DNA of 64,000 bases from contig JALJPK010000007.1 of assembly GCA_022968985.1 (NCBI GenBank), forward strand, positions 1 to 64,000, written 5' to 3'. Both the position numbers and the translations under genes were made by a program. The notes under the pieces are model-generated. The model did no database searches and was not told the origin of the DNA. It saw nothing but the letters and a program-made list of their open reading frames with translations. Each line of letters begins with the position of its first letter. The first letter of the stretch is position 1. This document shows, piece by piece, positions 3,583-58,821 of the stretch. This stretch comes from Pseudomonadales bacterium. Lineage in GTDB: Bacteria > Pseudomonadota > Gammaproteobacteria > Pseudomonadales > Natronospirillaceae.

Positions 3583-4320
3583 TCATTCAAACGGGTAGTC
3601 CATCTTAAATTTTATCAACTGACGATTAAAATCCCCGACACCGTCATCGGGTAATTTATTCCAACCGTGCTGTTGTATCAACTCACGCACATCAGCGTAA
3701 TCATCCCAATCAATATTACCAGCGTATTGTTGCAACTGATAAAACACTTTTACGAGCACTCTAAATTTACCCAATCTTGTGGCTTTTCGAAGCCCATTTA
3801 AATAGCTGTCTCGATGTACGGTTGGCACAATAATTTTATGTTGATTACAACTGTGTAATTCACAATTCATCATAATTCTAGATAAACGACCATTACCATC
3901 ATTAAACGGATGACATTCAGAAATAAGATATTGCATAAAGATTGCGCGAGGTAAGCCTCTAGCCAACGTTAAATATTCTTCAAAACCTTGTGTGAGTGTT
4001 CCAATTAAATGTTCGGGGGCAACAAACACACTATCGCCAGCTTTATTATTTTTAGTTTTAAATTCACCAGGGTTTAATTCTGGCCGTTGCCCCATCATTA
4101 ATTTATGACGTTCTTTTATTATTTGAATTAACTCAGATGCATTGTTTGGGGTTTCAGTCATTGCTTGATGATCACTCACTAAGTCGTAAACCGATAACAC
4201 ATCATGACTATCACTATTACGGTTTTCTATCATCTTTCCAGCAAATACTATGTCTTCTGCTTCATCAATTTCAAACTCAGTACCTTCAATATAATTTGAA
4301 AAATAACTTTCAAAAAAATG
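3583..4320 (-). pseudogene. Fic-family AMP transferase, 5'-truncated
   Basis: Fic proteins transfer AMP to hydroxyl side chains of target proteins. The catalytic motif HPFNDGNGRLSR is intact (canonical HPFx[D/E]GNGRxxR). The first usable ATG is at 4233, but the reading frame continues upstream to 4320 with family-typical sequence (ESYFSNYIEGTEFEIDEAED) and no start codon, then meets a stop at 4321-4323. The upstream part contains SNYIEG, which fits the inhibitory-helix motif [S/T]xxxE[G/N]. The N-terminal domain normally before it is missing, so this is a truncated gene. If translated from 4233 it would make a 216-residue core lacking the inhibitory helix. The flanking sequence gives no clue to the missing half. 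Confidence 0.75.
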
Positions 4321-4853: not shown

Positions 4854-6164
4854 ATGTCAGACATTCAAATATTAAATTCAACTGCGATTCAAACCCCAAT
4901 CAAAGATGCCGTTTCGAATACTGTCGGTAATTCATCGTCGTTATTAATAACAGCCAATAATGATATTGAAGCCATTGAAAAATACTTAACCACTAAGTGT
5001 AAAAAAGAAACCACATTAAATACAGTGATGGGAGTACTTCGTAAACTGCAATTTTTTATGAATTACACAGGCATTAAAAAATTAAGTGATTTTAAAGTAG
5101 AGCAGTGTGAAGAATTTCAAAAATGGTTAAGCCATCCACCGGTTGAGCATGTTTTACAAATTGATCAATCTAAGGCAAGCCGAGATGCTAAAACGGCAAA
5201 GATCGAAAAACATGTTTTAGATAATGGACAGCTAAATCCGAAATGGCGACCTTTTGCTTGTGAATTAAAACCTCAAACCGTGGCCTGGAATATAAAACCT
5301 ATTAATGCATTATGGTCTTGGCTTGTGAATGTTAACTATTTATCGGCCAACCCCTGGTGTGTTATTGATACTGCTAACTATGATTTAGAAGCAAAAAAAC
5401 AAGTTCGTGATTTACCAACAAAGTTAATACAACTGACCAATCAATATTTAGATGAAGTGCAATTTGAGAGTATTAAACAGCAAAAAACCTTAATTCAAAA
5501 AAGGTGGTTGTTTAAATTATTTTTATTAACAGGCTCGAGGTTATCTGCTTGTGCCAATGCTAAAACATCAGACATTAAGCAAAATTATCGTGGTGACTGG
5601 GAGTTAACACTAATTGTCAAAGGTAAAGGAATACGCACTCATTGCATTGCTTGGACAGATTCATTAAAACTTGAATTAGAGCGTTATCGTGAGGCATTAG
5701 GTCTTAAGATGTTAGATGATTCTAAAACAGGCCCTAATCATCTTATATTAAGCTTACGTGACCCAAATAAAGATATGAAAGTGTCTCGAACTTTAATTTG
5801 GCGAAATATTAAGGATTTATTTAGTGATGTTGCTGATTACTACGAACAACTACAAATGATTAAAAGCTATGAAGCCGATAATTTACGTGATGCCTCTCCA
5901 CATTGGATTAGACATTCAGTTGCTTCTATTTTGGGCAGTCATGCTAAAGAGCAGTTAGGACATTTATCAGATAAACAAACTTCAGAATACCAACATCAAC
6001 AATATCTGGAACAAGTACAAGCGTTAGAGCAATTAGATAATCCAACTTTATCAGAATCTTTTTCTTTTAAATTAGATGACGAAGTATTGGCTTATTTTCA
6101 AGCAACTGGACTTGGTTGGGAAGACAGAATTAATCAAATATTAAAAAATTATATCAATATATAA
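4854..6164 (+). CDS. Tyrosine recombinase (plasmid-type)
   Basis: Site-specific recombinase of 436 residues. The core-binding helices are in the first 200 residues and the catalytic set is complete: R229 (TGSRLSACANA), H350-x-x-R353-H354 (PHWIRHSVAS), H370 (LGH) and the nucleophile Y379 (SEYQHQQY). It is longer than XerC/D and carries a C-terminal extension of about 55 residues. It lies alone between the 31-bp array and the replication genes, which suggests resolution of plasmid multimers or control of a local inversion rather than phage integration. The catalytic assignment is from motifs; the substrate site is inferred to be the upstream array. Confidence 0.85.
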   Translation: MSDIQILNSTAIQTPIKDAVSNTVGNSSSLLITANNDIEAIEKYLTTKCKKETTLNTVMGVLRKLQFFMNYTGIKKLSDFKVEQCEEFQKWLSHPPVEHVLQIDQSKASRDAKTAKIEKHVLDNGQLNPKWRPFACELKPQTVAWNIKPINALWSWLVNVNYLSANPWCVIDTANYDLEAKKQVRDLPTKLIQLTNQYLDEVQFESIKQQKTLIQKRWLFKLFLLTGSRLSACANAKTSDIKQNYRGDWELTLIVKGKGIRTHCIAWTDSLKLELERYREALGLKMLDDSKTGPNHLILSLRDPNKDMKVSRTLIWRNIKDLFSDVADYYEQLQMIKSYEADNLRDASPHWIRHSVASILGSHAKEQLGHLSDKQTSEYQHQQYLEQVQALEQLDNPTLSESFSFKLDDEVLAYFQATGLGWEDRINQILKNYINI

Positions 6165-11875: not shown

Positions 11876-14800
11876 ATGAGCGAAAAACAAGAGGATACTA
11901 AAAGGAGTGTTCATAATGTAACTAGAAAGTTGCCTGAAAACATTAATAGGAAAATAAAGCCTCATCCGCAAAAAGAGGCAGAAACTATCAATCAAGACAG
12001 TGCAATAGCCTCAACTTGGGATACAATTTCAAGTGAGTTAAGTTCTGACTCGATCAGTAGACTTAAAACCTACCTAGACTTTTCTCAAACTTTTGAAGAG
12101 TTTAAACATAATTTATCTGTAATCCTTAAAGTCAGCCAAGCAGTTCCTTTTTTCTCCAAAATTGACGGCATCAAAAAGTTCATCAGTGCAGCCAAGAAAA
12201 TTGAAGAGATAATATTAGCTGAAGAACAATCTTCGCAACTTTATAAAGATATCTACTTAGAGTTCGATAAATTAGACCAAGGTAATAGTGATAAAGAAGA
12301 GCTAATAGACTCATTAAATAAGGTTTTGGCTGTTTCTATAGATCGTTACTCGGATGACCAAAAAATAATAGTTCGTTTTTTACAAGCTATAGTTTTGGCC
12401 TGGAAACAGAGATCTGATTCAATTAAATCTACAAACCTTAATCCGCGTACTAGTTATGAAAGAAATACAGGGCCGACCAAATCTATTGAAGTATTGATTA
12501 ATTCACAAATATTTAGTCAGAATAAAGACTTTTCAATAAATATTGAGAAAATGTATGAGATAGAGGCTTGGGCGTTGATAGAAAAATTTGAAGATTTTTC
12601 ACGTTCTCAAAATTCAATCTTTTCTCAAGAAGTCGATTTTACTAGTGAAGCAAATTACGACCGTATCTTTACGAAAACCACAGAAAAATTATTAGTTAAA
12701 CAAAAAGCAGTTTCTAAAATTGAAATACCAGAATTAACTAATTTAATTGATGATTTTAAATCTCCTATTTTTCGAAATCCTAGTTCACAATTTTCAAAGC
12801 CAATTGATAATCAGCATTTAATGCTTAATTGGGATACCCCAAATTTTATCGAAATTGAGACTTTACTGAGTAAATGCTTTGAAGGTAAGTCAGTAAGTGA
12901 TAACACTTATCTAGCAATATTGATGCTTGTTGCTCTTTCTATTAGCCCTAAAGAGTTATTTCAAATTGAAATCTGTTCAGATGAAAAAATACCTCAAGAA
13001 CCTGGTCGTATAATAGTCAGCAAAAAAGGATTCTGGCATAAACGATTAATTACTCCTGAAAACGCTATTATGACACAACCTTGCTATTCACCTGATGTCT
13101 TTAGTTTTGGAGTAATCAAGCAAACCTTACCTCAAGTTATAAACAGACGACTGAAAGCAGTTGTAGAACAAAAAAGTTTAGGTCAAGGCCTTGGATTTAA
13201 AAGTGTAGCGCAATTAAATAAAGCAGTTTCCGAAGTGTGCAACGAAGTAAGTTCACATCTAACGCCCTCTAGGCTAAAGAAAGCATTATTTGGTCGGTTA
13301 ATCTTTCAAGGCGTGGCAGTTGATAATGCTGCGCTTGCAATTGGTTTCCCAGAACGAATTGGTGGTCAACACTTTTACTATTATTCAATTAAAGTCAGAG
13401 AATTACAAAGTATCTATGACTCGGCAATAAATGACTTGTTTAATTCATCAGTGCCTAATCCTGTAAAAGAGTTTTCTGGTGAAAATGAATGGGTAGGTAG
13501 TTTAATTCACCTGGATTACCCATGGCACGAAAATAAGTTAAAGGAATACATAAAACAAAAACCAGAAATAACAATTCAGTCCAATCTATCTCAGGTTATT
13601 CTTTATCATAATTGGTTCAGTAAATATGTAGCGTGGCTTTTGTTATGTTCAACAGGGCATCGTCGAGCAAAGAAATTAAGTTTTACAGTAAAAAATATTT
13701 CAGAAGAATGGGTGTTGATTAATGATAAGCAAAGTACCCTAAATCCATTTCGCATAGTGCGCCTGGGTGGTTTTGTTGCACAACAATTAAAGATGTATCG
13801 CATCCATTTAAAATCTCTTTCCATGTTAATTGCAAAGAAAAAGGAAACCCATTTAGCAAGAGTTCTAAAACACTTAACCACTTTTCCAAATTTAGAGATA
13901 TCTGAATCTCAGATTTTTTTCCATATGGATGAAAATTCGTTTGTAATCGCCCCTTATACGTCTAACGAAATAATAAAGGGAATTGGTTTTAATAATGTTC
14001 CTGATAATTTTCATAGGCATTGGTTTATTAGTGGATTGAGAGAATGTGGTGTTCCGCAGGAATGGGTTTCATCAGCAGCAGGTCATGTAGAAGTTGGCCA
14101 ACAGGAGTGGTCATATACAGCACTATCAGCACTATCGAGCATCTCTAAGGATTGGGATGAAAAACGCGATGAGTATTTATCGAATTTAGGGTTTGATATT
14201 ATTGAAAGTGAGCTCCCATCAGTACCCAACCGTCAAAATCAAACGAGTAAGGTTGAATTTCAACCTTTTTGTTTGAATCCTGTCGAGCTGGAGCGAAAAA
14301 AGCAGAAGGATTTAAATAAGATTCTTGATAGTCTGATTTTAGATGTGTTGAAATCACAAATGGAAAATAACCAGGATTTAGAGAATCTAACCAAGGAAAG
14401 GTTTACAGTCGAGCTGAAAAAAAGGATCAATACCAGTAATAGTTCGATATTAAATACAACAGAAAAAAAGAAAATAAATAAGGTATTAAATATTAAACTG
14501 AAAGATATAGTAGATGATCATGTTAAAATTATTGACAAGGATGACGACGAAAAAGAGCAACATAAATTTGTTGATTTTGCTAGAAACGTCGTGCAAAAGA
14601 CTGAACATACAAATTTAATTTGCGAGCATACGGTTTATTTATCTAGTTTATTTGAACAGATTCTAAATGAATTCTATCCTGCTGTAATAAAAACTCTATT
14701 GAAACAAGAAAACTCTCTACATTTTACTGCATTACAATATATTACATTGGTGATAACCGAACTTTGTCTTAATAAAAAAGAATTAGATTCTATTTTTAAT

Positions 14801-17344
14801 TCTAAATCTATTGAAGTCCATAGTTTGAATGATACTGCTTGGATAGAATGGTTATATCAAGGGCGACAACAACGTCGGTTATTGTCCCCCCTGGCATCGT
14901 TAATTTTTTTAGATAAAAATAATATTCATAATAAAACTCATAATATAAATAAAATTCATAAATGTATTGAAAGTTTAATCGAGACCTATTCGGCTTATAA
15001 ACCAAAACATCAAAAAAATTCTAGTTCAAAAAGTTCTACTAAATTAGACAGGTTTATTGAATGTAATATTATAAATGGAAAAATAAAATTTATAGACTTT
15101 CTTTTTAAATCGGCAAATTGTTGGTGTACGATTAATCTACCTAACTGTTTAACATCTTACGCTAATCAAGAATTTAAAACATCATCACTAAAATTTGAAA
15201 ATTTTATTTCAACCCTTACTGGAGAACAACTTGCTAAGGGATATACAGAAAAAGATCTAGAAAAAATACGAGATCCAATAGATATATTAGATGAATCTAT
15301 AGTTAAAATTGAAAAAAAGAAGATGACAGCGATAATAAATAAAGCAAAAAAATATTCTAATGAAACAACAAAAGCAAGATTGGCTGTATCAAACGAGTTA
15401 AAAGAATTAAATAAACAGTGGCGAATACTATCGATGCCTTCAATCTTAACGATTGTTAACGAATATGCTCAAAATATATTTTTAGAAAAAAATTCTAATG
15501 ACTCCTATATAAAACAAGTGTCAACTATATGTAAATATATTTCTTCAGTAATAACTTCATTTAAAGTTGCAACAAAATTTAATTGGAACGTGATTGATGA
15601 ACCAGAATTACAAAACTTATATAAAAATGCTTTAGAAGCATACGAAAAGAAAAATAAGAGTGATCCGATCGAATATGCAAAGCACCTTCGTTATTTTCAC
15701 AATTATTGTGTAGTTCATGGCATACACGATGATTTAGATTTATATAGCATAAGTGACCGGTTTACTAAAAGAAAACTTTTTGTCCCTAAGTCTGGGTTTA
15801 TTGGCTACCGCCATTATGAAATAGCCAGAAGTATTGCAGATAAATTATGGGGAAAACAATCCTTTCAAGAGCTTTTACTTATTTTGATGTTTAAATTTGG
15901 GTTGAGAGTGAGCGAAGCTATACGTTTAAAGCGTGAAGATATTCTAATATCTGATGGGGATATAATAGTTATTGTAATATCTAATAATTTAGGAAAAGTA
16001 AAAACGCAATCAGGTAATAGGCAAATTAGAGCTGTAAACTTAACAGAAAGCGAGCGCGAAGTAATAATTAATCATTGTCGAATTTTTGATTTTGGTAAAA
16101 AAGAAAAACTTAAAAATCTTTCCGACCCATTGTTTAATGACACTTTTAAGAATATGAAAATTATCTCTCAAAGTTGGGTCTCAAGAACTACCCAGGAAAT
16201 TCTGAGGCTGGTAACTGGCAATAGAAAAATTCGCTTGTACGATGCAAGGCACAGCTTTCTTAGTTCGCAATTGTATTGGAACTTAAATCTAGTGGATAGA
16301 TTACCAGGCAGTAAGGAACATTGGGAGTTTGAAGGGCAAGATGATCACCAACTTAAACTTATTGGCTCCTGTGTCAAAAGTCGGCGAGTTGCTTTCGCTA
16401 TTTCGGCGTTAGCTGGTCATGCAAATTTTCAAACGACTTATGAAAATTATTTTCACTTATCAGAATTAGTATTATTCGATTATCAAACCAAAATGAATTT
16501 TTCTGAAATAAACTCGCCTGAATTAATGAAATTAACAGGCATTAGTAAGCAAGCTTTAGGGCACTTGATATGTAGAAATAAAAATGACTTAGAACTTGAA
16601 AGTAAAATATTACAAAGATTGCTAAAAGATCAAACACCTATCACGCAGCTGAATAATGACGGCAATTTTTCTAATGATCATATACTCTCACTTGTGGAAC
16701 CTTGTAAGCCAGTATTTAATCTTCAGCTAATTGAAACCGTCATTTCCTTAGATGCAAAAGGTGAAAAATTAAAGGATATCGAGCTTTTAGTAAAGTTGAA
16801 TAAAAAAGTAATAAATACTATTTTACAAGTTAGTAATGAACTGTCTGTTGAAATTAATTTCAATATTAAAAAGCATTTTTTAAAAATGCATTTTAATGAA
16901 GATCGTAGATATTCAAAAAAATCAATCAACTTATTGTCAATTTTAGAAGAAATAAGTGATAAACAAGAATTGATCGATATCTGGGAGAGAGGATATCACT
17001 CTATGGATAGTACACTTATACTTGATTCAGAAAAAAAATTAAAATTTTTAACGAAGCCATTTAAAAAAACTGAATTCAAGTTTGTTGAGAATTATTTGAG
17101 TAAAGAAGAGTTAATTAACTTATCTAAAGGTAAAAATAATAAAGGATATCATACTGACAATAATTTGTTATTTATGAGATTTGTATCAATATTTAAAGTC
17201 CATCTTGATTCTGTCGATAATCACGATGAATCGATGAAGAATAACCGAGTTATGAAATATTTTCATAAGGCAATATTTCTATTTTCTATAAGAGAGAAAT
17301 TAAAAGAATTAATCAATAATAATGAAGTCAATTGGAAGAATTAA
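11876..17344 (+). CDS. Giant double tyrosine recombinase, 1822 aa
   Basis: A single uninterrupted frame carrying two tyrosine-recombinase catalytic regions. The first has R596 (TGHRRAKKL), H713-R714-H715 (FHRHWFISGLREC), G736-H737 and a candidate nucleophile Y747 (EWSYTAL). The second has R1344 (FGLRVSEAIRL), Y1455-D-A-R1458-H1459 (RLYDARHSF), G1514-H1515 and Y1522 or Y1525 (TTYENYFHL). Each follows helical, Lys/Ser-rich regions like core-binding domains; the middle (about 800-1150) is Lys/Asn-rich and has no recognised domain. Usual family members have 300-450 residues, so this is a natural tandem fusion. The first copy departs more from consensus and may be partly degenerate. It stands alone, with long AT-rich flanks. 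Function is unknown: self-mobility, DNA rearrangement and replicon resolution are all possible. Confidence 0.75.
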   Translation: MSEKQEDTKRSVHNVTRKLPENINRKIKPHPQKEAETINQDSAIASTWDTISSELSSDSISRLKTYLDFSQTFEEFKHNLSVILKVSQAVPFFSKIDGIKKFISAAKKIEEIILAEEQSSQLYKDIYLEFDKLDQGNSDKEELIDSLNKVLAVSIDRYSDDQKIIVRFLQAIVLAWKQRSDSIKSTNLNPRTSYERNTGPTKSIEVLINSQIFSQNKDFSINIEKMYEIEAWALIEKFEDFSRSQNSIFSQEVDFTSEANYDRIFTKTTEKLLVKQKAVSKIEIPELTNLIDDFKSPIFRNPSSQFSKPIDNQHLMLNWDTPNFIEIETLLSKCFEGKSVSDNTYLAILMLVALSISPKELFQIEICSDEKIPQEPGRIIVSKKGFWHKRLITPENAIMTQPCYSPDVFSFGVIKQTLPQVINRRLKAVVEQKSLGQGLGFKSVAQLNKAVSEVCNEVSSHLTPSRLKKALFGRLIFQGVAVDNAALAIGFPERIGGQHFYYYSIKVRELQSIYDSAINDLFNSSVPNPVKEFSGENEWVGSLIHLDYPWHENKLKEYIKQKPEITIQSNLSQVILYHNWFSKYVAWLLLCSTGHRRAKKLSFTVKNISEEWVLINDKQSTLNPFRIVRLGGFVAQQLKMYRIHLKSLSMLIAKKKETHLARVLKHLTTFPNLEISESQIFFHMDENSFVIAPYTSNEIIKGIGFNNVPDNFHRHWFISGLRECGVPQEWVSSAAGHVEVGQQEWSYTALSALSSISKDWDEKRDEYLSNLGFDIIESELPSVPNRQNQTSKVEFQPFCLNPVELERKKQKDLNKILDSLILDVLKSQMENNQDLENLTKERFTVELKKRINTSNSSILNTTEKKKINKVLNIKLKDIVDDHVKIIDKDDDEKEQHKFVDFARNVVQKTEHTNLICEHTVYLSSLFEQILNEFYPAVIKTLLKQENSLHFTALQYITLVITELCLNKKELDSIFNSKSIEVHSLNDTAWIEWLYQGRQQRRLLSPLASLIFLDKNNIHNKTHNINKIHKCIESLIETYSAYKPKHQKNSSSKSSTKLDRFIECNIINGKIKFIDFLFKSANCWCTINLPNCLTSYANQEFKTSSLKFENFISTLTGEQLAKGYTEKDLEKIRDPIDILDESIVKIEKKKMTAIINKAKKYSNETTKARLAVSNELKELNKQWRILSMPSILTIVNEYAQNIFLEKNSNDSYIKQVSTICKYISSVITSFKVATKFNWNVIDEPELQNLYKNALEAYEKKNKSDPIEYAKHLRYFHNYCVVHGIHDDLDLYSISDRFTKRKLFVPKSGFIGYRHYEIARSIADKLWGKQSFQELLLILMFKFGLRVSEAIRLKREDILISDGDIIVIVISNNLGKVKTQSGNRQIRAVNLTESEREVIINHCRIFDFGKKEKLKNLSDPLFNDTFKNMKIISQSWVSRTTQEILRLVTGNRKIRLYDARHSFLSSQLYWNLNLVDRLPGSKEHWEFEGQDDHQLKLIGSCVKSRRVAFAISALAGHANFQTTYENYFHLSELVLFDYQTKMNFSEINSPELMKLTGISKQALGHLICRNKNDLELESKILQRLLKDQTPITQLNNDGNFSNDHILSLVEPCKPVFNLQLIETVISLDAKGEKLKDIELLVKLNKKVINTILQVSNELSVEINFNIKKHFLKMHFNEDRRYSKKSINLLSILEEISDKQELIDIWERGYHSMDSTLILDSEKKLKFLTKPFKKTEFKFVENYLSKEELINLSKGKNNKGYHTDNNLLFMRFVSIFKVHLDSVDNHDESMKNNRVMKYFHKAIFLFSIREKLKELINNNEVNWKN

Positions 17345-17672: not shown

Positions 17673-19007
17673 TTAAAGACCCAGACGTTGATTGTCTTTT
17701 ATCAGCTTAATTAACTCAGTCGATGCACTGTAATTTGAATATTTATGATTTTTAAAAACATCAATTGTTTTATCAATAATGTTATTGATCTGCTTGTCTT
17801 TTAAATTACAGTAATATCCAAACTCAATTAAATCATCACGTGTAAAATCATCTTGTTTAGCATTTAGATTAATTTGATGTTTACTGGTCCATTGCCCCAA
17901 TGGATCATAGGCATAAGTTAAATCAAAAGCTGGTGATAATGACCAGTTTCCTTGTTTGTCCATTAAAAAACCAAAGTTCTTAGTATGATCATCCTGGTTA
18001 CGTCCAATAATATTAAAAACTGCACGTTTAAAAATTTGCGTCACTGCAGATTGGCCAAGATTCATTTGTTTGACTAATAACACTAATTGTTCGTATGAAT
18101 AGGTGCCAGTAGTATCGCGATGGGCATGGGCTAGGGCGCACCAAGAAGCATAATGCAGTTTTTCTAATCGTTTTTTGTTACTGTCCCAATAACGATCAAA
18201 TCGTTCAATTAGAAAATGTACTTTTTTGTCACTGCCTTGAGTATTAATAATTTTGGTAGCTGGAGTGGTTATTCCACATTTGTTTGCAATCTGGAAATAA
18301 TTGTATTCAATTTCAGTCATGCCTTTAGGGTCTTTAGCGTCTCGATCAGAATTACTTTCACTATCAAACTTAATTAAGTAATAACTAAAACCTTCTCCCT
18401 GATCAACAGTGCCATCAAATAAGCTTTCACTTTTATCGTGAGAAATAGCAACTAAAGCTTTCGCTCTAGCACCACCCGCACTAGAACCCACTCGAATAAA
18501 TTTGATGGCTTGTTCGTGATCTTGATTCGATTGAAGATTTTTTGCCAACTCACTTTTATTGTTTAACACCATATCAGCTAGTTGCTCTAAAGAATTCAAA
18601 TCCAACACATTCTTTGGGTCATTACCGTCCAAATTAACCATTGGTACATATTCCAAAGCACCCATTGCTCGATCACCAATATAAGCGAGTCGATCTAAAG
18701 CGGTAATATCTTCAACCGGAATATTTTTTTGCGCCATATACTGATCAATTAAAGAAGATCCGAATTTATCAGGCAAACTATCGGCAAAAATGCCAGGCAA
18801 CCCTTTGAATGTTCGTTCACTGATATCGGTGAATGCATGGAGTTTTTGTTGACGTTTCATTTTGATAGGCGAAATTTCAATTGGGATGGACATCATTTCA
18901 TCTGTGTATTCAAAATAAATAGTAGGACTATCAGCTTTTGCCCAACCAATTACGCCAATTTTAGTTCCCCATAAATACACGTCTAATTGATTAATATCAC
19001 TCATCAT
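17673..19007 (-). CDS. hipA: HipA-family serine/threonine kinase toxin
   Basis: A 444-residue HipA-type toxin. The N-terminal domain (VYLWGTKIGVIGWAKADSP) is followed by the kinase core: the Gly/Ser-rich loop (RVGSSAGGARAKALVAI), FLIERFDRYW, the catalytic segment GRNQDDHTKNFGFLMD and the metal-binding PAFDLTYAYDP. HipA kinases phosphorylate targets such as glutamyl-tRNA synthetase (known for E. coli HipA) and cause growth arrest. The start overlaps the end of the antitoxin gene (ATGATGAG), so the two are translationally coupled. All key residues appear intact, so it is likely active and held in check by the upstream HTH protein. Confidence 0.92.
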   Translation of the reverse strand: MMSDINQLDVYLWGTKIGVIGWAKADSPTIYFEYTDEMMSIPIEISPIKMKRQQKLHAFTDISERTFKGLPGIFADSLPDKFGSSLIDQYMAQKNIPVEDITALDRLAYIGDRAMGALEYVPMVNLDGNDPKNVLDLNSLEQLADMVLNNKSELAKNLQSNQDHEQAIKFIRVGSSAGGARAKALVAISHDKSESLFDGTVDQGEGFSYYLIKFDSESNSDRDAKDPKGMTEIEYNYFQIANKCGITTPATKIINTQGSDKKVHFLIERFDRYWDSNKKRLEKLHYASWCALAHAHRDTTGTYSYEQLVLLVKQMNLGQSAVTQIFKRAVFNIIGRNQDDHTKNFGFLMDKQGNWSLSPAFDLTYAYDPLGQWTSKHQINLNAKQDDFTRDDLIEFGYYCNLKDKQINNIIDKTIDVFKNHKYSNYSASTELIKLIKDNQRLGL

Positions 19008-19338
19008 TACCCCACTTAATTTCGTTTAATTTTTTAGATTGAGTAGGTTTGCGCACTCTTTTCTTTTTGATAACGTCTGATTTTTCAAAAGTAATTTTTT
19101 CAGGCAGTTCAAACAAAGCTTCTAACTTATCAAGCTCCCCAACGCCTCTTAAAATAGAAATAAGTCCGTCTAACCGTATGGCATTTTTATTATGAGTGAA
19201 CCGGTTAACCGTGAGTTTATTGGTACCGCCTTGTTCACAAACTTGATCCACGGTTAAATTTTTAAATAAACGTAATTGCTCAAACTGTTTGCCTAAATCT
19301 TCCATAATTTGGACATCGGTCATTAGGTGATATTTCAT
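18997..19338 (-). CDS. hipB: HipB-like HTH antitoxin
   Basis: A 113-residue Xre-type DNA-binding protein from the ATG at 19338 (MKYHLMTDVQIMEDLGKQF). The helix-turn-helix is DQVCEQGGTNKLTVNRFTHN, with a basic tail rich in KKKRVRKPTQSKK. A further upstream ATG at 19368 lies inside the operator palindrome, so it is not used here. It precedes and overlaps hipA. The two palindromes in front are its probable autoregulatory operators. Confidence 0.85.
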   Translation of the reverse strand: MKYHLMTDVQIMEDLGKQFEQLRLFKNLTVDQVCEQGGTNKLTVNRFTHNKNAIRLDGLISILRGVGELDKLEALFELPEKITFEKSDVIKKKRVRKPTQSKKLNEIKWGNDE

Positions 19339-19361
19339 AATATGTCTACCACTGCTGATAA

Positions 19362-19417
19362 GTATCATTAATGATACCTTATATGGATTATTTGCACTTT
19401 AAGTATCATTAATGATA
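19362..19417. promoter_or_regulatory. Two hip operators
   Basis: GTATCATTAATGATAC (19362-19377) and TATCATTAATGATA (19404-19417) are near-identical palindromes spaced 41 bp centre to centre (four helical turns) directly upstream of hipB. This matches the multi-operator layout of hipBA promoters, where HipB dimers bind. Confidence 0.75.
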
Positions 19418-20504: not shown

Positions 20505-20825
20505 ATGGCAAACAAACCCTCGCAGCATTTAGACCAAATTATTAATGAACTGGCCGTTATCAAACAACAAGTTGAGAAGATGGACTTAGAAAACAAAATG
20601 ATCCAAGGCAATAAAAATTGGGTTCCTTTCATTGAGATCCCCCAATTGATTAAGCTCAAACGATTAGCCGATGAGTTATCAATCGATGAGTTTGCAATAC
20701 AACTTGGTATTAACTCTAAAACATTACGAAAAATTGAAAACCCAAAAACCATTCAATCGACGTCAATGAATTCATTATTACTGGTGTGTGAGCATCTTGG
20801 TATTGAATTGTATGCTAAAGGGTAG
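20505..20825 (+). CDS. hipB: HipB of a HipBST three-part toxin-antitoxin system
   Basis: A 106-residue Xre-type regulator: an N-terminal coiled helix (LDQIINELAVIKQQVEKMD), then the helix-turn-helix ADELSIDEFAIQLGINSKTL and a C-terminal helix. It is the first gene of a tight operon with hipS and hipT. In the characterised E. coli HipBST system HipB binds DNA and boosts neutralisation while HipS is the true antitoxin. The operators at 20383-20438 suggest autoregulation. Confidence 0.85.
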   Translation: MANKPSQHLDQIINELAVIKQQVEKMDLENKMIQGNKNWVPFIEIPQLIKLKRLADELSIDEFAIQLGINSKTLRKIENPKTIQSTSMNSLLLVCEHLGIELYAKG

Positions 20826-20829
20826 AGCG

Positions 20830-21150
20830 ATGCGTAAAGCAAAAGTACTGTTTAAAAAACACAATGCTGGGGTATTAATTGAAAATGAACAGGGTTATGA
20901 GTTTACTTATTATCCAGAATATTTATTAAGTAAAGGCGAACCCATTGGATTTCACTTTCCTTTGCAATATGAATCATTTAAAAATCAAACGTTATTTCCA
21001 TTATTTAGCAACTTAACCTCAGAAGGGTGGTTACGTGATATTCAAACACATCAACAAAAGCTCAACGATGAATTCACCTTATTAATCAATTATGGTAACG
21101 ATCTAATTGGCGCTATTTCACTGATCGAAATAAAAAATGGAGAAATATAA
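20830..21150 (+). CDS. hipS: HipS antitoxin (HipA N-subdomain-like)
   Basis: A 106-residue protein matching only the N-terminal subdomain of HipA: AGVLIENEQGYEFTYYPEYL, then GFHFPLQYESFKNQTLFPLFSN (position of the HipA fold before the kinase). In HipBST this small protein is the antitoxin that blocks the separate kinase HipT. ATG 20830 is chosen over earlier frame-open codons because AAAGGG stands 7 bases before it and it begins just after the hipB stop. It overlaps the possible hipT ATG by 14 bases. Confidence 0.85.
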   Translation: MRKAKVLFKKHNAGVLIENEQGYEFTYYPEYLLSKGEPIGFHFPLQYESFKNQTLFPLFSNLTSEGWLRDIQTHQQKLNDEFTLLINYGNDLIGAISLIEIKNGEI

Positions 21151-22132
21151 AGTGATTAATCAACAACCATTAAAAAGATTATTAGTGAAACTAAACCATG
21201 ATACAAACAATATTGAATCATTAAGTTTTACAAGAGAGGAATTTTTCCAAAATAAAATACGTTATGCACAAGGAATGTCCATATCGGGTATGCAACAAAA
21301 AATAAGCCTTAAATATGTGAACGGTAATTACGAACCTTGTAACGCAGAAGGCGAATATATTTTAAAACCATCACAAGAAGGATTGAGATTCAGCGCAGAA
21401 AATGAGTATTGTGCCATGTTAATTAGTCAATATTACAAGATTAAAACCGCTGAATGTTCACTAGTTAAATTTAAAGACTCAACTGAAAATGCATACATTA
21501 CAAAACGATTTGATCGTGACATTCATAATATCCGTATTGCACAAGAAGATATGAACTCAATTTTTAATCTGTCTGCAAGAGATATCAATAACAAAATATC
21601 AAAAAACTACGAAACAGTTATCAACAAAATTATAGAAGTAACTGGCAGAAAACCACCCGCTATAGAATTATTAAAAAGGATTATGTTTTCATACTTAATT
21701 AGCAACAGTGATTTACATCTTAAAAATATAAGTGTCATTTATAATGAAAAAATAGGTTACAGCCTAAGTCCGTCATATGATTTATTAATGATTAACTCGC
21801 TACTAGAATATAACGAAAATAAAGAACAAACTTCAATGGCATGTGGACTTTTATGTGATGAAGAAAATACAGATGTAATAGAGGATGAATATTTCACTGA
21901 GCATTTTGAACATTATGGATTTTATACAGGGCATGACTTTTTAGAATTAGCTAAAAGACTCAACATAAACAAAAAAGTGGTCAGCACAATCGTTCAAGAT
22001 TTTTACATTAAATTATCTGGTGCCATTGAAATAATAGAACAATCCTTAATGCCTGAACAAATGAAACAACAAGCCATAAACGATATAAAAACAAGAATGA
22101 AAGTGCTACAAATTGGTGTGATTGAAGATTAA
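21137..22132 (+). CDS. hipT: HipT kinase toxin (short HipA-like)
   Basis: A HipA-like kinase without the N-terminal subdomain, 331 residues, typical of HipT (335 in E. coli O127, where it phosphorylates tryptophanyl-tRNA synthetase). The phosphate-binding loop is GMSISGMQQK, containing the S-I-S pair that is autophosphorylated in HipT. ILKPS, ITKRFDRD, the catalytic loop SNSDLHLKNIS and PSYDLLM are all intact. Two starts are possible: ATG 21137 (overlapping hipS, no clear ribosome site) or GTG 21152 (GGAG 9 bases before it). It is followed at once by the 188-bp terminator-bearing repeats. Confidence 0.88.
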   Translation: MEKYKVINQQPLKRLLVKLNHDTNNIESLSFTREEFFQNKIRYAQGMSISGMQQKISLKYVNGNYEPCNAEGEYILKPSQEGLRFSAENEYCAMLISQYYKIKTAECSLVKFKDSTENAYITKRFDRDIHNIRIAQEDMNSIFNLSARDINNKISKNYETVINKIIEVTGRKPPAIELLKRIMFSYLISNSDLHLKNISVIYNEKIGYSLSPSYDLLMINSLLEYNENKEQTSMACGLLCDEENTDVIEDEYFTEHFEHYGFYTGHDFLELAKRLNINKKVVSTIVQDFYIKLSGAIEIIEQSLMPEQMKQQAINDIKTRMKVLQIGVIED

Positions 22133-25351: not shown

Positions 25352-26530
25352 ATGGCTAAAATTACACAACGCAATGGTTTTTTAGTATTTGATTTTAATT
25401 ATAAAAATACACGCTGTCGTGAATCCACTGTACTACAAGATTCAAACAGCAATCGTAAACGCGCTGAAATAATACTAAATCGAATAACTGCTGAAATTAA
25501 AACAAAAACGTTTGATTATTTAACTTATTTCCCAAAATCAAAAATGGCAAAAAAGTTATTACACAAACAAAATGAAATATCTGAAATTACAAATTCAATT
25601 CCAACGTTAAATGTATTTTGTCACAACTGGTTAAAAGAAATGAAACCTGGATGGAAACAATCGTACATTGATCAGGTAACCCGTAATCTAAATAATTACA
25701 TTCTCATACAGTTTGGAAATTTTAATATTTCAGACATAACAAAATCAATGGTTTTAATGTTTCGTTCCGACCTGACTCAAATAAATGAATTTAGTGGGGG
25801 AAATAAACGAGCATTAGCGCCTGCAACCATTAACAAAATCATCACGTTATTACGCAGCATAATAGAAGAAGCCACTCTACGTTTTGATATTGATTTTAAA
25901 CTGAGCAATATCAAACCCTTAAAAGGCATACGTCCTGACGTACAGCCATTATCAATAAATGAAATTGATAAATTCTTAGAACAAGTACGCCCTGATTTTA
26001 AAGAATATTTTATCACACGATTTTTTACAGGGTTGCGATCAGGTGAGGTGCACGGTTTGCAATGGAAACACATCGACTTTGCAAACAGACAAATCATCAT
26101 CGAACAAGCCTATGGCGAATACGGCATAACCACACCTAAAAACGAATACGCCTATCGTGAGGTTCAAATGTGCCAAATAGTATTTGATGCACTTAAAATT
26201 CAACAAACAAGAACAACACATAAAAACGGATTTGTATTTTCAAACAGTCAGGGTAATGCAATCTCAAGTAATGCAGTGAATGAAAAAATATGGAAACCCA
26301 CATTAAAGTGTTTGAATTTTCCAGAAAGAAGGGTGTACCAAACCAGGCATACCGCCGCCACATTGTGGTTAGCCTCATGCGAAAATCCAGAATGGATTGC
26401 AAGACAGCTAGGGCACAGTAATACACAAATGCTGTTTCGAATATATTCACGATACATTCCAAATGCATTAAGAACAGACGGCGTAGCGTTTAACCAAATG
26501 ATTAAAAACAACATCACAGCCATTAAATAG
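25352..26530 (+). CDS. int: Phage-type integrase with DUF3596 arm-binding domain
   Basis: A 392-residue tyrosine integrase. The N-terminus (ITQRNGFLVFDFNYKNTRCRE down to TFDYLTYFPKS) is a DUF3596-type arm-binding domain, followed by a SAM-like core-binding domain. Catalytic residues: R229 (TGLRSGEVHGL), Y329-x-x-R332-H333 (YQTRHTAATLW, Tyr at the usual His), H355 (LGHSNTQ) and nucleophile Y365 (RIYSRY). It forms an operon with the upstream excisionase-like gene and the two MPW genes downstream (12-base gap). It presumably drives integration and excision of an element in this part of the window. No attachment site or tRNA was recognised nearby. Confidence 0.9.
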   Translation: MAKITQRNGFLVFDFNYKNTRCRESTVLQDSNSNRKRAEIILNRITAEIKTKTFDYLTYFPKSKMAKKLLHKQNEISEITNSIPTLNVFCHNWLKEMKPGWKQSYIDQVTRNLNNYILIQFGNFNISDITKSMVLMFRSDLTQINEFSGGNKRALAPATINKIITLLRSIIEEATLRFDIDFKLSNIKPLKGIRPDVQPLSINEIDKFLEQVRPDFKEYFITRFFTGLRSGEVHGLQWKHIDFANRQIIIEQAYGEYGITTPKNEYAYREVQMCQIVFDALKIQQTRTTHKNGFVFSNSQGNAISSNAVNEKIWKPTLKCLNFPERRVYQTRHTAATLWLASCENPEWIARQLGHSNTQMLFRIYSRYIPNALRTDGVAFNQMIKNNITAIK

Positions 26531-28989: not shown

Positions 28990-29595
28990 CTAAGTTTTAT
29001 TCACCTCATCCTGGTAGCTATTTAACAGATTCTTTAGAAACTCCATCGCAGCCCCACTAAACACATAATGATCTTCACCCAATTGAAAAATCAAATCTTT
29101 TGATAACAAATAATTTATGGCTTTTGGCCAACTTTCAAGTCTCAAAGCAACTAGCGCCGATGATAAATCTTCGTCTTCTTTGATCGAATTAACATGCTCA
29201 GGTCTAAACCCATGAGTTGGATCAGCAAGTTGATCGATGTCAGCCGTTTTAGTGTAATGGCGACCCATGAATAAAAGTATCGCTTGAATCTTTAATGTAT
29301 TGTCATCGGTCTCTTCATTGTCTGAATCATTACAATCGCGAATATAGTAAAACTCCCCCGAAGGTTGATAGAGTAAATCAAAACCCATGTTCTTAAAAAA
29401 TTGTGTAAAATGAAGTTGATTGTTAAACACCAGAGTAAAATTTTTATCGTCGATCATAGCACTTTGTACATCGTCAAAACGTAATTTATTAAGTACTTTT
29501 CCTTGGGTGAATAACTTGTAAACCTGTGTGCTTGATAAGGACGGAATTTTATCAAACGTATTAACGGTAATGGTGTTACTTGCAAATTCATTCAT
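28990..29595 (-). CDS. jetB: MukE/JetB-like subunit of a Wadjet-type condensin
   Basis: Last gene of a four-gene minus-strand operon. A 201-residue protein with paired winged-helix character (ILLFMGRHYTKTADIDQLAD, ESWPKAINYLLSKDLIFQLG), as in MukE/MksE/JetB subunits that bridge kleisin and DNA. Its ATG lies 8 bases inside the preceding gene (kleisin-like), which shows translational coupling. Assignment rests mainly on operon position and fold pattern; sequence similarity of this family is low. Confidence 0.65.
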   Translation of the reverse strand: MNEFASNTITVNTFDKIPSLSSTQVYKLFTQGKVLNKLRFDDVQSAMIDDKNFTLVFNNQLHFTQFFKNMGFDLLYQPSGEFYYIRDCNDSDNEETDDNTLKIQAILLFMGRHYTKTADIDQLADPTHGFRPEHVNSIKEDEDLSSALVALRLESWPKAINYLLSKDLIFQLGEDHYVFSGAAMEFLKNLLNSYQDEVNKT

Positions 29596-30997
29596 TGATT
29601 AACTCGCTTGTGTCTTGCAGGATTATTGAGCGATAAACATAATACTGTCCATCCAGTTCGATATAGGCTTTGTTGTTTGTTTTTATTACTTGTTTGTCAT
29701 CAAGTTTATTTCTTACTACGTGTGTCAATGAGTTCAAAAGATCAACAAGTTCATAACCGCAGAATGAATCTTTTAGGCGGTAGTGTAATGTTGCAATCAA
29801 ATCTTTAGTGCTTCGTAGTGAAAGTGTATCGATAAAAGCATTAAGTTCTCTAAATCGCTCCATTCTAGTTTTTGATGTTTTTGACATAAACATATTGCCA
29901 TTACATCCAGAAAAATCACTGGCCTGTTTCATGTAGTCTTCAAATCGACTTTCTATATCAGTCAATACATTAGCGTAATAAGATGGTGAGTCTTCATATT
30001 TAAAACTTTTTAATTTTGGCTGGCGTTTGAGTCCTTGTAGAAAGTCAGTTTCATCTGAAAAATCATTACTTAATTTGGTTCTATTTAAACGGCCATCTTT
30101 TGTTTTGTTTAACTCTATGTTGAATCTCTCATAGTGCCATTGCATCGCGTTAAATTGAATAATGCTTTTTTGAGTTTTTCTGATGAATCCATTTACGTTG
30201 GTGGATATGTCTTTAAGCGGATTAATAATATTACTAAAACTTAATCCGTATTTGTGAACCTGATCAGCTTGAGATATTTTCTGGTTGGCTTCAAATAACA
30301 ATGCAATGTTAGTCAGTGTGTCCAATAAATTTTCACCGTCCTTTAAGCGAATATCAGGGGTAACAAAGCGTTGGGTGGGTAAAATATGTCGCTCATACAA
30401 ATGTGTGATTTTACTTAATAAGGTGTCTCGGTATTCCGAATAATTAACATTATCTTTACTTACATCAATTGACATGTTTTCTAAGTTTTTATTGATGTGT
30501 CTCATTCGCTCAAGGTTACGCTTTAGTAAATTTAATAAACTGCCTAACTGGTAATTAAGCTGTTCTACTAATTCTGTGTAATCAGGGTCAGCTTGTGAAT
30601 ACGTACAATCTTCATTACTCATACGATCGAATATGGACCATAAACCAGATAATTCAGTTTTTAATTTCGCGTCTGTCAGTTCTTGATAAAGAGATGTTTC
30701 ACATAAGCGAAACATGCCAAGAATTGAATCCTGAAACATGATTTTTTTTACGTTCTCGAACGTATCCATATCAGCAATAACTTGGGCATTTATCATAGCA
30801 TCTAGTTTAAATGCAGTATTAATTCTCAACTTTTCTTTATCATCTAAATGCTTAGTTTGCGTTAAAACAATATTCATTAAGTCGGCAACACTAATGTACC
30901 TGTCTTTTGTTCTGTCCATCACTTTAATAGACTGAAACATAATACTCGGTATCTCAAGCATTATTTTAATGGTTTCGAGTGTGTTAAATTGTTTCAT
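29588..30997 (-). CDS. jetA: MukF/JetA-like kleisin subunit
   Basis: An all-helical, 469-residue protein from ATG 30997 (GGAAGG 6 bases before it; a GTG at 31003 is less likely). It has an N-terminal winged-helix-like region (DRYISVADLMNIVLTQTKHL), long helices such as ELVEQLNYQLGSLLNLLKRN, and a C-terminal winged-helix-like end (RNKLDDKQVIKTNNKAYIEL). This is the expected layout of the kleisin in MukBEF, MksBEF and Wadjet. It overlaps the ATPase gene by 14 bases and the MukE-like gene by 8. Confidence 0.65.
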   Translation of the reverse strand: MKQFNTLETIKIMLEIPSIMFQSIKVMDRTKDRYISVADLMNIVLTQTKHLDDKEKLRINTAFKLDAMINAQVIADMDTFENVKKIMFQDSILGMFRLCETSLYQELTDAKLKTELSGLWSIFDRMSNEDCTYSQADPDYTELVEQLNYQLGSLLNLLKRNLERMRHINKNLENMSIDVSKDNVNYSEYRDTLLSKITHLYERHILPTQRFVTPDIRLKDGENLLDTLTNIALLFEANQKISQADQVHKYGLSFSNIINPLKDISTNVNGFIRKTQKSIIQFNAMQWHYERFNIELNKTKDGRLNRTKLSNDFSDETDFLQGLKRQPKLKSFKYEDSPSYYANVLTDIESRFEDYMKQASDFSGCNGNMFMSKTSKTRMERFRELNAFIDTLSLRSTKDLIATLHYRLKDSFCGYELVDLLNSLTHVVRNKLDDKQVIKTNNKAYIELDGQYYVYRSIILQDTSELINE

Positions 30998-33950
30998 CAA
31001 CACCTTCCAATAAACCTATTTGGTTTTCATCTGTTATGAACTCATGTTGATCATAAAAAGCTTGTGGACCTCCCCAAACAACTCTTGTTCGATCTTTCGA
31101 ATACGACTTACTGGTTTTGAGTGCATCTACGTCATAATGAGTACCAATTTTATAAATCAATTCTGAGCTTGAACTATGGGTACCAGCAGTAAACAAAAAG
31201 AAGCCACTGTCTTTGATGTCTTTTAGTAACCATTCATATTGATCGACGTTAATGTTGGCCGCTTCATCCATTATAACAGGCAATAACACGTTACAATGAC
31301 TGGCTCGTAATTTTGATAAAAGCATTCTCACTAACTTTAAATTAATTAATGAGGTAGTTGATGTAGACTGCTGTTTAGTCTGCCATATTTCTTGACCGTC
31401 TTTTTGTACGCTGTAATTAATCTTACTGATGATATCGACCATTTGTAATTTGTTACGACCATCCCCTTTAAAGAAGGCCTCACTAAATACTTTTAAACGC
31501 TCATAAAACAAATCAGAATTTTGTTCGGTGCTAAACGGATTAAAACTTTTACCAATTTCACTAATAAGCGATTTAAAACGTTGATCAACCTCGATTGAAA
31601 TTTTAATACCGGTTAAATCATTAATATGAATGTCTTTTAAGGTTTGGTTAATTTGACTCTCAAAGCGAATAATGTGATCGCTATTTTTTTGTAGGATATC
31701 AACGTAATTACTGACACTCTCATTATGGGATTTTGTGCGAGTCTTGAGCATATCTTTAGTTGTGGGTAGCTCTAAATAGACTAAATCCAACTGGGTATAA
31801 CATTTTTTAATTGTGGCACTGCCAGGCATATCTGCAAATAACGTAGCTTCATAGCCTATCACTTTCATTTGAATAAACTCTTTTAAACCATTGATTATGC
31901 TAGTACGTAGATCTTTGATTTCTTGTAAGCCAACTTGAAGTTCTCGCACGGCTTCGTCTGATATTTCTATTTCTACAGTATTATCATTTCGATAATTTAC
32001 AATTGGCACACCGTCTGATTTAAGTAAATGTTCAATTTTTGAATTGGTGGGTATAATTACTTCTAATACCAGCTTCATTTTAATTTGCTTATCTAATTCA
32101 GCATCTAAGTCAGTCATTTGAACTTGGTAAAATTTATATTCTTCAGCTAAGTTTAAGTTTTTAGATTCAGCAGAAATTAGTTGTGGTTTGAGTAAATTAA
32201 TATCCTCAAAAGCCGATTCAACTTGTTCAGTCAGTACTTTTAATTCAACCTCTAAGTTAGTTATATTTTCAGCGTTGTTAATAAGCTTTGTGGTGACTTC
32301 ATTTTCGTGCTTAATGGATTTGATTTCTTTTTCAATGTAAAGAATATTTGAGTTTGCAAAGGATTCCAGATCTTTTAACTCTTTTCGCTTTTCTCTGCGT
32401 CTATCTTCAATATTAGAAATATCATCTGTTGGGTCATATTTTTTAATCTTGTTATTTACATCGATTCGAATATTAAAAAAATTAAAATAATTGCCTTCAT
32501 CTTTAAATAAACTTTCAAAACCGATGATTTTATTTTTATCTTCCTGCAACATATTTCGCCCTGGTTGGGCCGATATAAGATTTGGATTAAGGGAGTTTAA
32601 AAAACTAAGAGTGGATGCTGGCAATAAACTGGTGATAGCATCTTGAGGGGAGTTTGAACTATTAGTCAGCTCTGCTAATCGCTTGTCTAATAAACTAATC
32701 TCTTTTGATAACTTTTCGATACGAGTAATACGTTTATCTGCAGACTCAAGAGCCGATAATTTTTCGAGTTTTTCTTCGATATCCTTTTTCATTAATTCAA
32801 TAGCTTCGTAAGGCGTTGAATCATTGTATAGACTGAGTTCAAACTTAGTTGTTTTTATGGATTGCTCTAAAGTAGGTATACGTCTATTGTTTCGATTAAT
32901 AGTTGATTCAAACGATTTAATGTCAGCCTCTAAATCTTTTATTTGATTCTCAAGCGGTTTTTTCTCGTTTAAAACTTCTCTTATTTTAGTGCTAATGCCG
33001 TGATGTTCGATTGATTTAACTGCAATAGATTTTTTAAGGGCCAAATAAAAAGCGACAAACCTAGACTCGATACCAGACAGCTTGGTGTATTTGTCATAAC
33101 TGTCCTTAATTCTATGATGTTTGTCACTGAGGTTTTCTATCTCAATGACCTTTGTATTTTCCGCTTGCAGTTGATCATGTGTTTCAAAAAAAGCCTTTAA
33201 ATCAAAATTAAGCGCATCCGATTTTTCTTTTTTTTCTGTTTCAATAATATTGGCAACGGCTTTTGCAACCGATGTATTTGACGTTTTCATATCGAACAAC
33301 ATCAATATTAGCGCTCGTAACGATTCAATTTGTTCAGGTTCAGCCGAATTTAAAGGAAATAAACTGTATCGCATCGCAGGTACACTTAATATGTCATTAG
33401 TATAAAGTAAGTCTTTAAGCTTTTGACTGTCCTTGATAACAAGCATGTGTTTATCTTGGCTCTTGATCGTGGAAATTAAGCTTTTTGTGCTAAATCCATC
33501 CACCCGTGAACCGATCGATTTATCATCATTCGCCTCAACTTGCCAAATAAAACCTCTTAGTTTGTTATATGGTAATGTTGTAAATATACGATCATAAGAA
33601 AGATTCGATCCACGATACAGAATTTGGCAATGCGATTGAGTGGTACCGGCGATGGTCTTTTCAATTTCAATAATTAAATGGGAATGTTTAGTAGGGAAAT
33701 AATGGTTGTACGAATCATCTTGTGAGTATTCGTCGCCGTTCGAGCTTCTAAAATTGAATTTATCCTTGGCTTTTCTAAAATTGGACTCAGGCAGAATAAA
33801 TAAGCGAATACAATTTAATAAACTTGATTTACCAACATTGCCTTCCCCTAATAAAATGGTGTGATTATCAAGATCAATCTCTGAATAACAAAATCCAGCA
33901 GAATCAACCACCACTAATTTTTTTAACGTAACGTTCATATTACTAGACAT
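30984..33950 (-). CDS. jetC: MukB/JetC-like SMC ATPase
   Basis: A 988-residue SMC-type ATPase. Walker A is GEGNVGKSS with K41; the ABC signature-like QQSTSTTSLINLKLVRML and Walker B LLPVIMDEAANINVDQYEWL are near the C-terminus. Between them are two long coiled-coil runs (about 260-420 and 530-680) around a hinge-like centre. In Wadjet systems this motor extrudes DNA loops, measures plasmid size and triggers cleavage of small circles by JetD. It is somewhat shorter than typical JetC. It is 9 bases downstream of the TOPRIM gene. Confidence 0.8.
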   Translation of the reverse strand: MSSNMNVTLKKLVVVDSAGFCYSEIDLDNHTILLGEGNVGKSSLLNCIRLFILPESNFRKAKDKFNFRSSNGDEYSQDDSYNHYFPTKHSHLIIEIEKTIAGTTQSHCQILYRGSNLSYDRIFTTLPYNKLRGFIWQVEANDDKSIGSRVDGFSTKSLISTIKSQDKHMLVIKDSQKLKDLLYTNDILSVPAMRYSLFPLNSAEPEQIESLRALILMLFDMKTSNTSVAKAVANIIETEKKEKSDALNFDLKAFFETHDQLQAENTKVIEIENLSDKHHRIKDSYDKYTKLSGIESRFVAFYLALKKSIAVKSIEHHGISTKIREVLNEKKPLENQIKDLEADIKSFESTINRNNRRIPTLEQSIKTTKFELSLYNDSTPYEAIELMKKDIEEKLEKLSALESADKRITRIEKLSKEISLLDKRLAELTNSSNSPQDAITSLLPASTLSFLNSLNPNLISAQPGRNMLQEDKNKIIGFESLFKDEGNYFNFFNIRIDVNNKIKKYDPTDDISNIEDRRREKRKELKDLESFANSNILYIEKEIKSIKHENEVTTKLINNAENITNLEVELKVLTEQVESAFEDINLLKPQLISAESKNLNLAEEYKFYQVQMTDLDAELDKQIKMKLVLEVIIPTNSKIEHLLKSDGVPIVNYRNDNTVEIEISDEAVRELQVGLQEIKDLRTSIINGLKEFIQMKVIGYEATLFADMPGSATIKKCYTQLDLVYLELPTTKDMLKTRTKSHNESVSNYVDILQKNSDHIIRFESQINQTLKDIHINDLTGIKISIEVDQRFKSLISEIGKSFNPFSTEQNSDLFYERLKVFSEAFFKGDGRNKLQMVDIISKINYSVQKDGQEIWQTKQQSTSTTSLINLKLVRMLLSKLRASHCNVLLPVIMDEAANINVDQYEWLLKDIKDSGFFLFTAGTHSSSSELIYKIGTHYDVDALKTSKSYSKDRTRVVWGGPQAFYDQHEFITDENQIGLLEGVDETI

Positions 33951-33959
33951 TCGGGTTTC

Positions 33960-34757
33960 CTATAATTTAAATTCTAATATGGCTTCTTGTTCCATAAAGC
34001 ATTTATTAGTTGCAATGAGTTTATTTAATGATATTAAACCCAGTTCTTTTGATGTCTTTAAAGTCATCATAAATTGGTCTGTATCTAACGGTTTTTTAAC
34101 AAAATAAGGGCTGAGTTTAATATTGGGCTCTAGAAACTGCGCCTTATCACCGAGCATATTCTTCATAGCCTTGAATATTTTTAGACCTCCATAATCATAA
34201 TCAAAGAAACAAATAACGTTGTTGTATCTATTTAAAAAATCCGAATTTAATTTATTACTGATTTGATTGCCTGCACCATAGATTATATCTGTATTTTCAA
34301 ATGACCAATCGCTATCAAATATTTCATTTAATTTCTGAAACAAAGTTTCTTTAGTGAAAAATAATTCAGAATTTTCAACAATTAAAGCTCTTTTTTTATT
34401 AGTGAATAAACAATAAATTTCTTTGGACAGGCACAATACAGTATCAGGATGAATAGAATCTGAATATTGGTGATAGGCTAATAAAAAGCTAGTTGAAGTG
34501 TTGATTTTATGTGAGTCACCCTTTAAAGTCGCTTGTACTCTAGTTTTTGGTTCAATACACAGATGACGTAATTCATCAAGAATCGACTCATCTTGTATAT
34601 CTAAGAGGTAACGAGGTGGTTTGATAAGTGTCGCACAATCTAAGTTCTGGATATTTTCATTAAGTTGTTCAGGTAATAGTGATAAAAATACTTGATAATT
34701 AATTGGTTGATTATTTTCGATTTTATCAAGATACGCTTTTAATCGCTTGTCATACAT
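33960..34757 (-). CDS. jetD: JetD-like TOPRIM nuclease, short form
   Basis: A 265-residue protein with a TOPRIM domain in its second half: LIVEN with E128 and CFFDYDYGGLKIF with D186 and D188, then a C-terminal QEAILEF. JetD is the DNA-cleaving subunit of Wadjet, related to topoisomerase VI-A. Usual JetD proteins are about 350-400 residues, so the N-terminal part is reduced here. It is the first gene of the operon instead of the last, as in the JetABCD order. It starts 152 bases from the divergent WYL regulator, with GGAAG before the ATG. Confidence 0.75.
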   Translation of the reverse strand: MYDKRLKAYLDKIENNQPINYQVFLSLLPEQLNENIQNLDCATLIKPPRYLLDIQDESILDELRHLCIEPKTRVQATLKGDSHKINTSTSFLLAYHQYSDSIHPDTVLCLSKEIYCLFTNKKRALIVENSELFFTKETLFQKLNEIFDSDWSFENTDIIYGAGNQISNKLNSDFLNRYNNVICFFDYDYGGLKIFKAMKNMLGDKAQFLEPNIKLSPYFVKKPLDTDQFMMTLKTSKELGLISLNKLIATNKCFMEQEAILEFKL

Positions 34758-43613: not shown

Positions 43614-43618
43614 CTATC

Positions 43619-55108: not shown

Positions 55109-55117
55109 GGGCAAATA

Positions 55118-58819: not shown

Positions 58820-58821
58820 CA

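Follow-up and report, generated by a model that had tools for sequence, protein, structure and literature searches.

A gene joining an active-looking and a tyrosine-less recombinase half in one chain: a probable natural fusion of a two-protein system

Tyrosine recombinases are, in the textbook view, tetramers of like subunits, and a gene in which two recombinase catalytic regions can be read in one frame raises the question of what such a pair is and whether its halves are equal. The gene considered here lies on the forward strand at 11876-17344 of the window, by which we mean the whole stretch of 64,000 nucleotides that was analysed. According to the open reading frame listing it is a single uninterrupted frame of 1822 codons from ATG to stop. 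A first-pass annotation, made from the letters alone, had described it as a covalent pair of recombinase subunits, either with two equivalent active halves or with one active and one structural half. The uninterrupted frame with two catalytic regions stood, both folds being matched well beyond chance, and so did the covalent pairing, since the halves are separate adjacent genes in most relatives. The unequal version was also borne out, with a conserved active site in the second half (hereafter B) and a catalytically deficient-looking first half (hereafter A), whereas the version with two equivalent active halves was not supported, since the first-half tyrosine is not conserved. This fused pair, with one active-looking and one catalytically deficient-looking half, is a real finding. 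The window gene is best explained as a natural single-chain fusion of a two-protein tyrosine recombinase system, an explanation that we hold, taken as a whole, with moderate confidence.

The A profile covers the window protein up to residue 819 and the B profile covers it from residue 808 onwards, so the protein is A (about residues 1-815) joined without a gap to B (about residues 808-1822). The long Lys/Asn-rich middle, which had been noticed earlier and left unassigned, is indeed there but has a place in this arrangement: it is the junction of the two proteins (residues 773-898, 14192-14569, on the + strand like all parts of the gene) and, for the remainder, the N-terminal part of B. The A half opens with A0 (residues 1-299, 11876-12772), an N-terminal piece that is poorly conserved, has no family match and shows AF2 pLDDT values mostly below 40. 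It is followed by A1 (residues 300-552, 12773-13531), possibly a degenerate recombinase fold, and by A2 (residues 545-772, 13508-14191), a recombinase catalytic fold that lacks a conserved tyrosine. In the B half an N-terminal domain, B1 (residues 899-1189, 14570-15442), precedes the core-binding and catalytic recombinase domain B2 (residues 1189-1559, 15440-16552) and a C-terminal tail (residues 1560-1822, 16553-17341), which lies inside the B family profile and contains no known domain.

The second catalytic region, B2, matched PF00589 in the genome search (26 bits, E 1.6e-5) and by hmmscan (E 1.3e-4, which is under the family cut-off), as well as XerD (E 2.1e-5) and the PHROG integrases (E 2.9e-17); its family profile matches solved recombinases, among them the archaeal Xer 4a8e (E 2e-9). 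According to the residue tally R1344, K1376, R1382, R1458, H1459, H1515 and Y1525 are kept in 44-46 of the 46 B halves. HxxR begins with His in 42 of 45 B halves but with Tyr in the window (Y1455-D-A-R1458-H1459). By its catalytic fold and its R-K-HxxR-H-Y active site the B half belongs to the tyrosine recombinase superfamily, with the HxxR His replaced by Tyr in the window copy. The first-pass annotation had proposed Y1522 or Y1525 as the key tyrosine of this half, and Y1525 (16448-16450) is the conserved one, being present in 45/45 sequences against 1/45 for Y1522. Judged from its sequence, B2 holds the full catalytic set and looks active, probably as a strand-cutting recombinase. B1 is recombinase-like by a weak profile match, which it shows to B2 only (P 0.026, 0/100 shuffles as high, against P 0.57 for canonical integrases), and sits on a low-confidence AF2 model.

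The first catalytic region has no Pfam or NCBIfam match. By its own sequence it matches PHROG's main family of integrases (E 0.0014, over residues ~584-784), and the A2 family profile matches both a profile of 14 canonical integrases (P 5.1e-6, none of 60 column shuffles as high) and the B2 profile (P 2.1e-6, none of 100 shuffles as high). A first half without recombinase fold had been named beforehand as an observation that would refute a recombinase pair; the fold was found, since the AF2 model of residues 545-772 matches 4a8e with a Z of 12.7 and an rmsd of 3.2 over 164 residues. Moreover, about the first 45 matches in a structure search with the A-half model were all tyrosine recombinases. 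That search effectively covered residues 545-757, so the absence of A1 among its matches is uninformative. The contig scan with a three-row alignment gave three loci, hence each AF2 alignment comprised four rows, and the two models are poor overall (mean pLDDT 41 for the A half and 37 for the other model). By fold, residues 545-772 are a tyrosine recombinase catalytic domain.

Its active site is incomplete in a consistent manner. Among up to 37 A halves no exception was seen at R596, K618, R626 or H737, and 36 keep R714, while the A half lacks the conserved nucleophilic tyrosine that active tyrosine recombinases have after GH: Y747 (14114-14116), earlier put forward as the key tyrosine of this half, occurs in 2/36 aligned A halves, and the adjacent column holds F, Y, H or T. 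In 31/36 A halves Asn (N711) stands where HxxR has its His, the window reading N711-F-H-R714-H715. Hence, of the two R...HxxRH...GH...Y sets that were originally reported, the two recombinase regions remain but the literal HxxRH is present in neither. Given the rarity of Y747 and the Asn at the HxxR His, A2 is probably not an independent cutting site. Among six Acinetobacter fused genes dN/dS lies at 0.24-0.39 in each of five parts, the A half included, which shows that both halves are under purifying selection and hence that the tyrosine-less half is retained for a function.

Relatives were gathered first with the protein and then with the B-half profile, which yielded about 45 loci; 23 of 398 Pseudomonadota genomes sampled across the phylum had a match. 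At most of these loci the halves are two same-strand genes, A (~700-900 aa) followed by B (~730-1290 aa), which usually overlap and otherwise abut. Single-chain fusions occur at six loci at least, namely the window, L028, L045, L046, L093 and L110. At least 80% of the length of the L028 fusion (1681 aa) could be matched in each of 42 plasmid records from Acinetobacter, where NCBI labels it 'tyrosine-type recombinase/integrase'. On the B-half tree no fewer than three changes are required to explain the fused state, and a single all-fused clade is rejected (p 0.029, with the caveat of long branches), suggesting that fusion probably arose more than once. The module is also found on large chromosome-sized contigs, beside integrases.

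No partner gene had been recognized at first, and in this respect the relatives corrected the picture. A small gene (~140-280 aa) precedes A in most split loci that have upstream DNA, and an integrase with an Arm-DNA-bind_2 domain lies within ~8 kb at about a quarter to a third of the loci, which by a rough estimate is far above the chance expectation from one such gene per genome. The window has such a canonical integrase at 25352-26530 on the + strand (PF12167 E 5e-19, PF00589 E 9e-13), possibly a partner of the fused gene or an island integrase. The small gene (L017:12543-13019, L090:2997-3497 and others) has no family match and by eye resembles a ParB/sulfiredoxin-like fold.

A discrete block with a sharp left end is seen in Acinetobacter only. 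A block of ~6 kb, consisting of ~150 bp, the small gene and the fused gene, is 92-98% identical in six plasmids whose flanks are largely unrelated. In different targets the left boundary is sharp and falls at the same sequence, TAAAAATAAAGTTAGTAAATAAATTATATAAATC (one base variable). In pIC001A and pAR3 it breaks a ParA-linked small gene right after AATTGAT, and an uninterrupted copy of this gene exists in pH7-68 and elsewhere in pJNE5. As for the right end, the second half of the interrupted gene was absent from the examined parts of pIC001A and pAR3. The copy in A. ursingii has an insertion sequence as left flank, and BREX or other defence genes neighbour the module in several plasmids.

Some further sequences were seen in these plasmids. 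Relic copies of the module's left end occur elsewhere in the same plasmids (L118, L119 and L120), those of L118 and L120 being cut off by apparently the same insertion-sequence end. A sequence of ~110 bp is present at several places per plasmid (L028, L118, L120, L121, L122), the right end of the fused module among them. This repeat, often accompanied by TTTGTTGCACAAAG, was considered as a candidate for the recombination site and dropped, since the motif resembles an insertion-sequence end.

The surroundings of the window gene include defence genes. The right side of the contig carries a BREX-like set at 53773-62493, with BrxA (E 5e-42), a probable BrxB, BrxC (E 0) and PglX (E 0). A Wadjet-like set of four genes lies at 28990-34757, with an SMC-like ATPase of 988 aa and a JetD-like protein (E 2e-7); a divergent gene accompanies it at 34910. 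Candidate defence genes resembling PDC-M27 lie at 42351-49470 (PDC-M27A E 4e-19, PDC-M27C E 2e-77, with one gene between them). A search for flank repeats around the window copy revealed neither a terminus nor a repeat nor an empty site. The interval that separates the fused gene from the canonical integrase holds a HipA-type gene (E 1.2e-45) and its helix-turn-helix-like neighbour at 17673-19368, and at 20505-22132 another set whose sequence looks HipA-like. To the left, 3583-4233 holds a Fic/DOC family gene (E 1.5e-11) and 4854-6164 a further tyrosine recombinase of 436 aa, the last 34 residues of which match the family of BrnA antitoxins (E 5.8e-7), an unusual pairing. Elsewhere in the same genome, a 4.4-kb stretch of contig C36 (L131) holds three genes for tyrosine recombinases (259, 412 and 373 aa), which alternate in strand; this trio does not have the appearance of a GInt.

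We propose the following mechanism. By homology with Xer, Cre and the integrases, B2 would cut with Y1525 and rejoin the strands at the core site. Having kept most of the phosphate-binding pocket and lost the tyrosine, the A half would probably bind one arm of the site, the partner arm, and may control synapsis or the order of cutting and exchange, as GinC may do in GInts and Tfp in SEs. Fusion would fix the ratio of A to B at 1:1. The system would most likely cut and rejoin the end of a mobile island, here one with phage-defence cargo on a plasmid-like replicon. A-B pairs and fusions are often located next to phage-defence islands and may help to move them. We infer catalysis, the role of A and the mobility of the window's own island, the last from the left end in Acinetobacter rather than from the window, in which no terminus was found.

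The first alternative concerns what the module is for: rather than driving an island it might maintain plasmids, resolving their multimers at a site close to the genes for replication. A replication or partition gene is found within ~2-10 kb of the module in several plasmids of Acinetobacter, on replicons of different types, which suits plasmid maintenance and counts against the island-mobility reading, and a ParB-like gene sits at the left end of the window. However, copies also occur beside integrases on the large chromosome-sized contigs, the left end interrupts the ParA-linked gene in two plasmids and variable cargo usually lies downstream of the copies. We regard plasmid maintenance as unlikely.

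A second alternative gives the A half a cutting site after all. Flp delivers its tyrosine in trans, and in a similar manner Y502 of A1 (13379-13381) could be delivered into the pocket of A2 (R596, K618, R714, H737), such that the fused chain would have two working sites. Y502 is invariant (37/37 relatives) and the A2 arginine, lysine, arginine and histidine are kept in 36-37 of 37, yet A2 is without a conserved tyrosine; a composite site would account for the invariance of both Y502 and the pocket when neither domain has a full catalytic set. Furthermore, A1 matches the family's own B2 profile (P 1.5e-5, none of 100 shuffles as high), the A profile, which aligns weakly to XerD, places the end of A1 on the HxxRH-GH-Y segment of XerD, and truncated A genes retain the segment with Y502. 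On the other hand, A1 does not match canonical integrases (P 0.2), AF2 gives it no confident fold (pLDDT ~25-53) and an invariant tyrosine can be structural. Weighing both sides, we find a composite site quite improbable.

The same residues lead to a larger scheme, in which the chain is a machine of four recombinase-like folds (A1, A2, B1 and B2), a covalent pseudo-tetramer with only two possible active sites, B2 by itself and A1 Y502 together with the A2 pocket. That A1 and A2 are separable modules follows from two loci that are split in another way, L019 with A1 as a gene of its own followed by A2 plus B, and L016 with A1 as a gene of its own followed by A2 and the start of B, where the contig ends. 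Two tyrosine recombinase folds are evident in the chain, there are signs of a third, a fourth is a matter of speculation, and the complete scheme appears very doubtful to us. If it were true, the four equal subunits of the classical complex would have become fixed unequal roles on one chain.

That both halves cut independently, with Y747 and Y1525, has in its favour that Y747 of the window falls at the position of the catalytic tyrosine in the integrase alignment, but the count of 2/36 for Y747, the F/Y/H/T of the adjacent column and the Asn in place of the HxxR His in 31/36 make it highly improbable. Least probable of all is that a sequencing or assembly error joined two adjacent genes in the window contig: A and B are usually overlapping neighbours elsewhere, one indel could fuse them, there are A-rich runs at the junction (A6-A7 at 14296, 14417 and 14463) and no close relative of the whole window protein that could confirm its junction was found in plasmids, phages, viral contigs or 22 genomes of its family, but the frame is open through the junction while the remaining two frames are stop-rich, the profiles meet at 808-819, and like fusions exist in other genomes and many complete plasmids.

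A natural fusion of an active-looking B with a tyrosine-less A thus remains the explanation that we prefer. With the two kinds of subunit side by side, and fused in some lineages, stoichiometry is fixed at 1:1 and the division of labour becomes testable by single mutations. In multi-recombinase elements it is an open question how four strand cuts are divided among two or three unequal proteins, a point made for RITs in PMC3414803. The system is common in Pseudomonadota, may help to move phage-defence islands and is unnamed in the literature searched (one literature collection), in which we found no description of an A-B family.

Finally, the A-B system can be set beside known recombinases. GInts, SEs, RITs, Tn554-type elements and gamma-mobile-trio islands come closest among the named kinds, and the gene content seen here matches none of them. 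Xer, Cre, Flp and the phage integrases share the fold and catalytic residues of B2 and the fold of A2; unlike the window chain, they are single-domain subunits of ~300-450 residues. Gamma-mobile-trio islands are recombinase-defined and rich in defence genes (PMC12715929), but no sequence in the window's genome reached the cut-off of the GmtY model NF040693, and neither the window gene nor its relatives matched this model. With RITs and Tn554-type elements the system shares adjacent, overlapping recombinase genes that are used together; RITs have three typical tyrosine recombinases and Tn554 elements one typical and one long one (PMC3414803), whereas here there are A and B only and the window gene does not belong to a row of three recombinase genes, so it is not a RIT. 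GInt islands carry a ginABCD operon of three tyrosine recombinase genes plus ginD, a small helix-loop-helix gene, all of them essential for excision and integration (PMC5385486). The likeness lies in several recombinases that act together and are encoded at one end, a GinC without part of the catalytic set and island cargo. By gene content the system is nevertheless not a GInt, as A and B, often with a small gene before A, or in the window one fused gene, take the place of three adjacent recombinase genes and ginD, and a canonical integrase is present at some loci, apart or on either strand. SEs encode, beside active recombinases, a recombinase-fold protein that is catalytically dead, Tfp, with genes that overlap at the element's left end (PMC10214605), and Tfp and its counterpart GinC have been proposed to bind DNA without processing activity (PMC10214605; PMC5385486). 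SEs have the operon intA-tfp-intB-srap, with two active recombinases and srap, while the A-B pair has one active-looking recombinase and a larger dead partner (~750-900 aa), sometimes fused to the active one; judged by gene content, a four-gene operon of that kind being absent, it is not an SE. The A-B system resembles GInts and SEs, is a member of neither and is a variant of the multi-recombinase systems.
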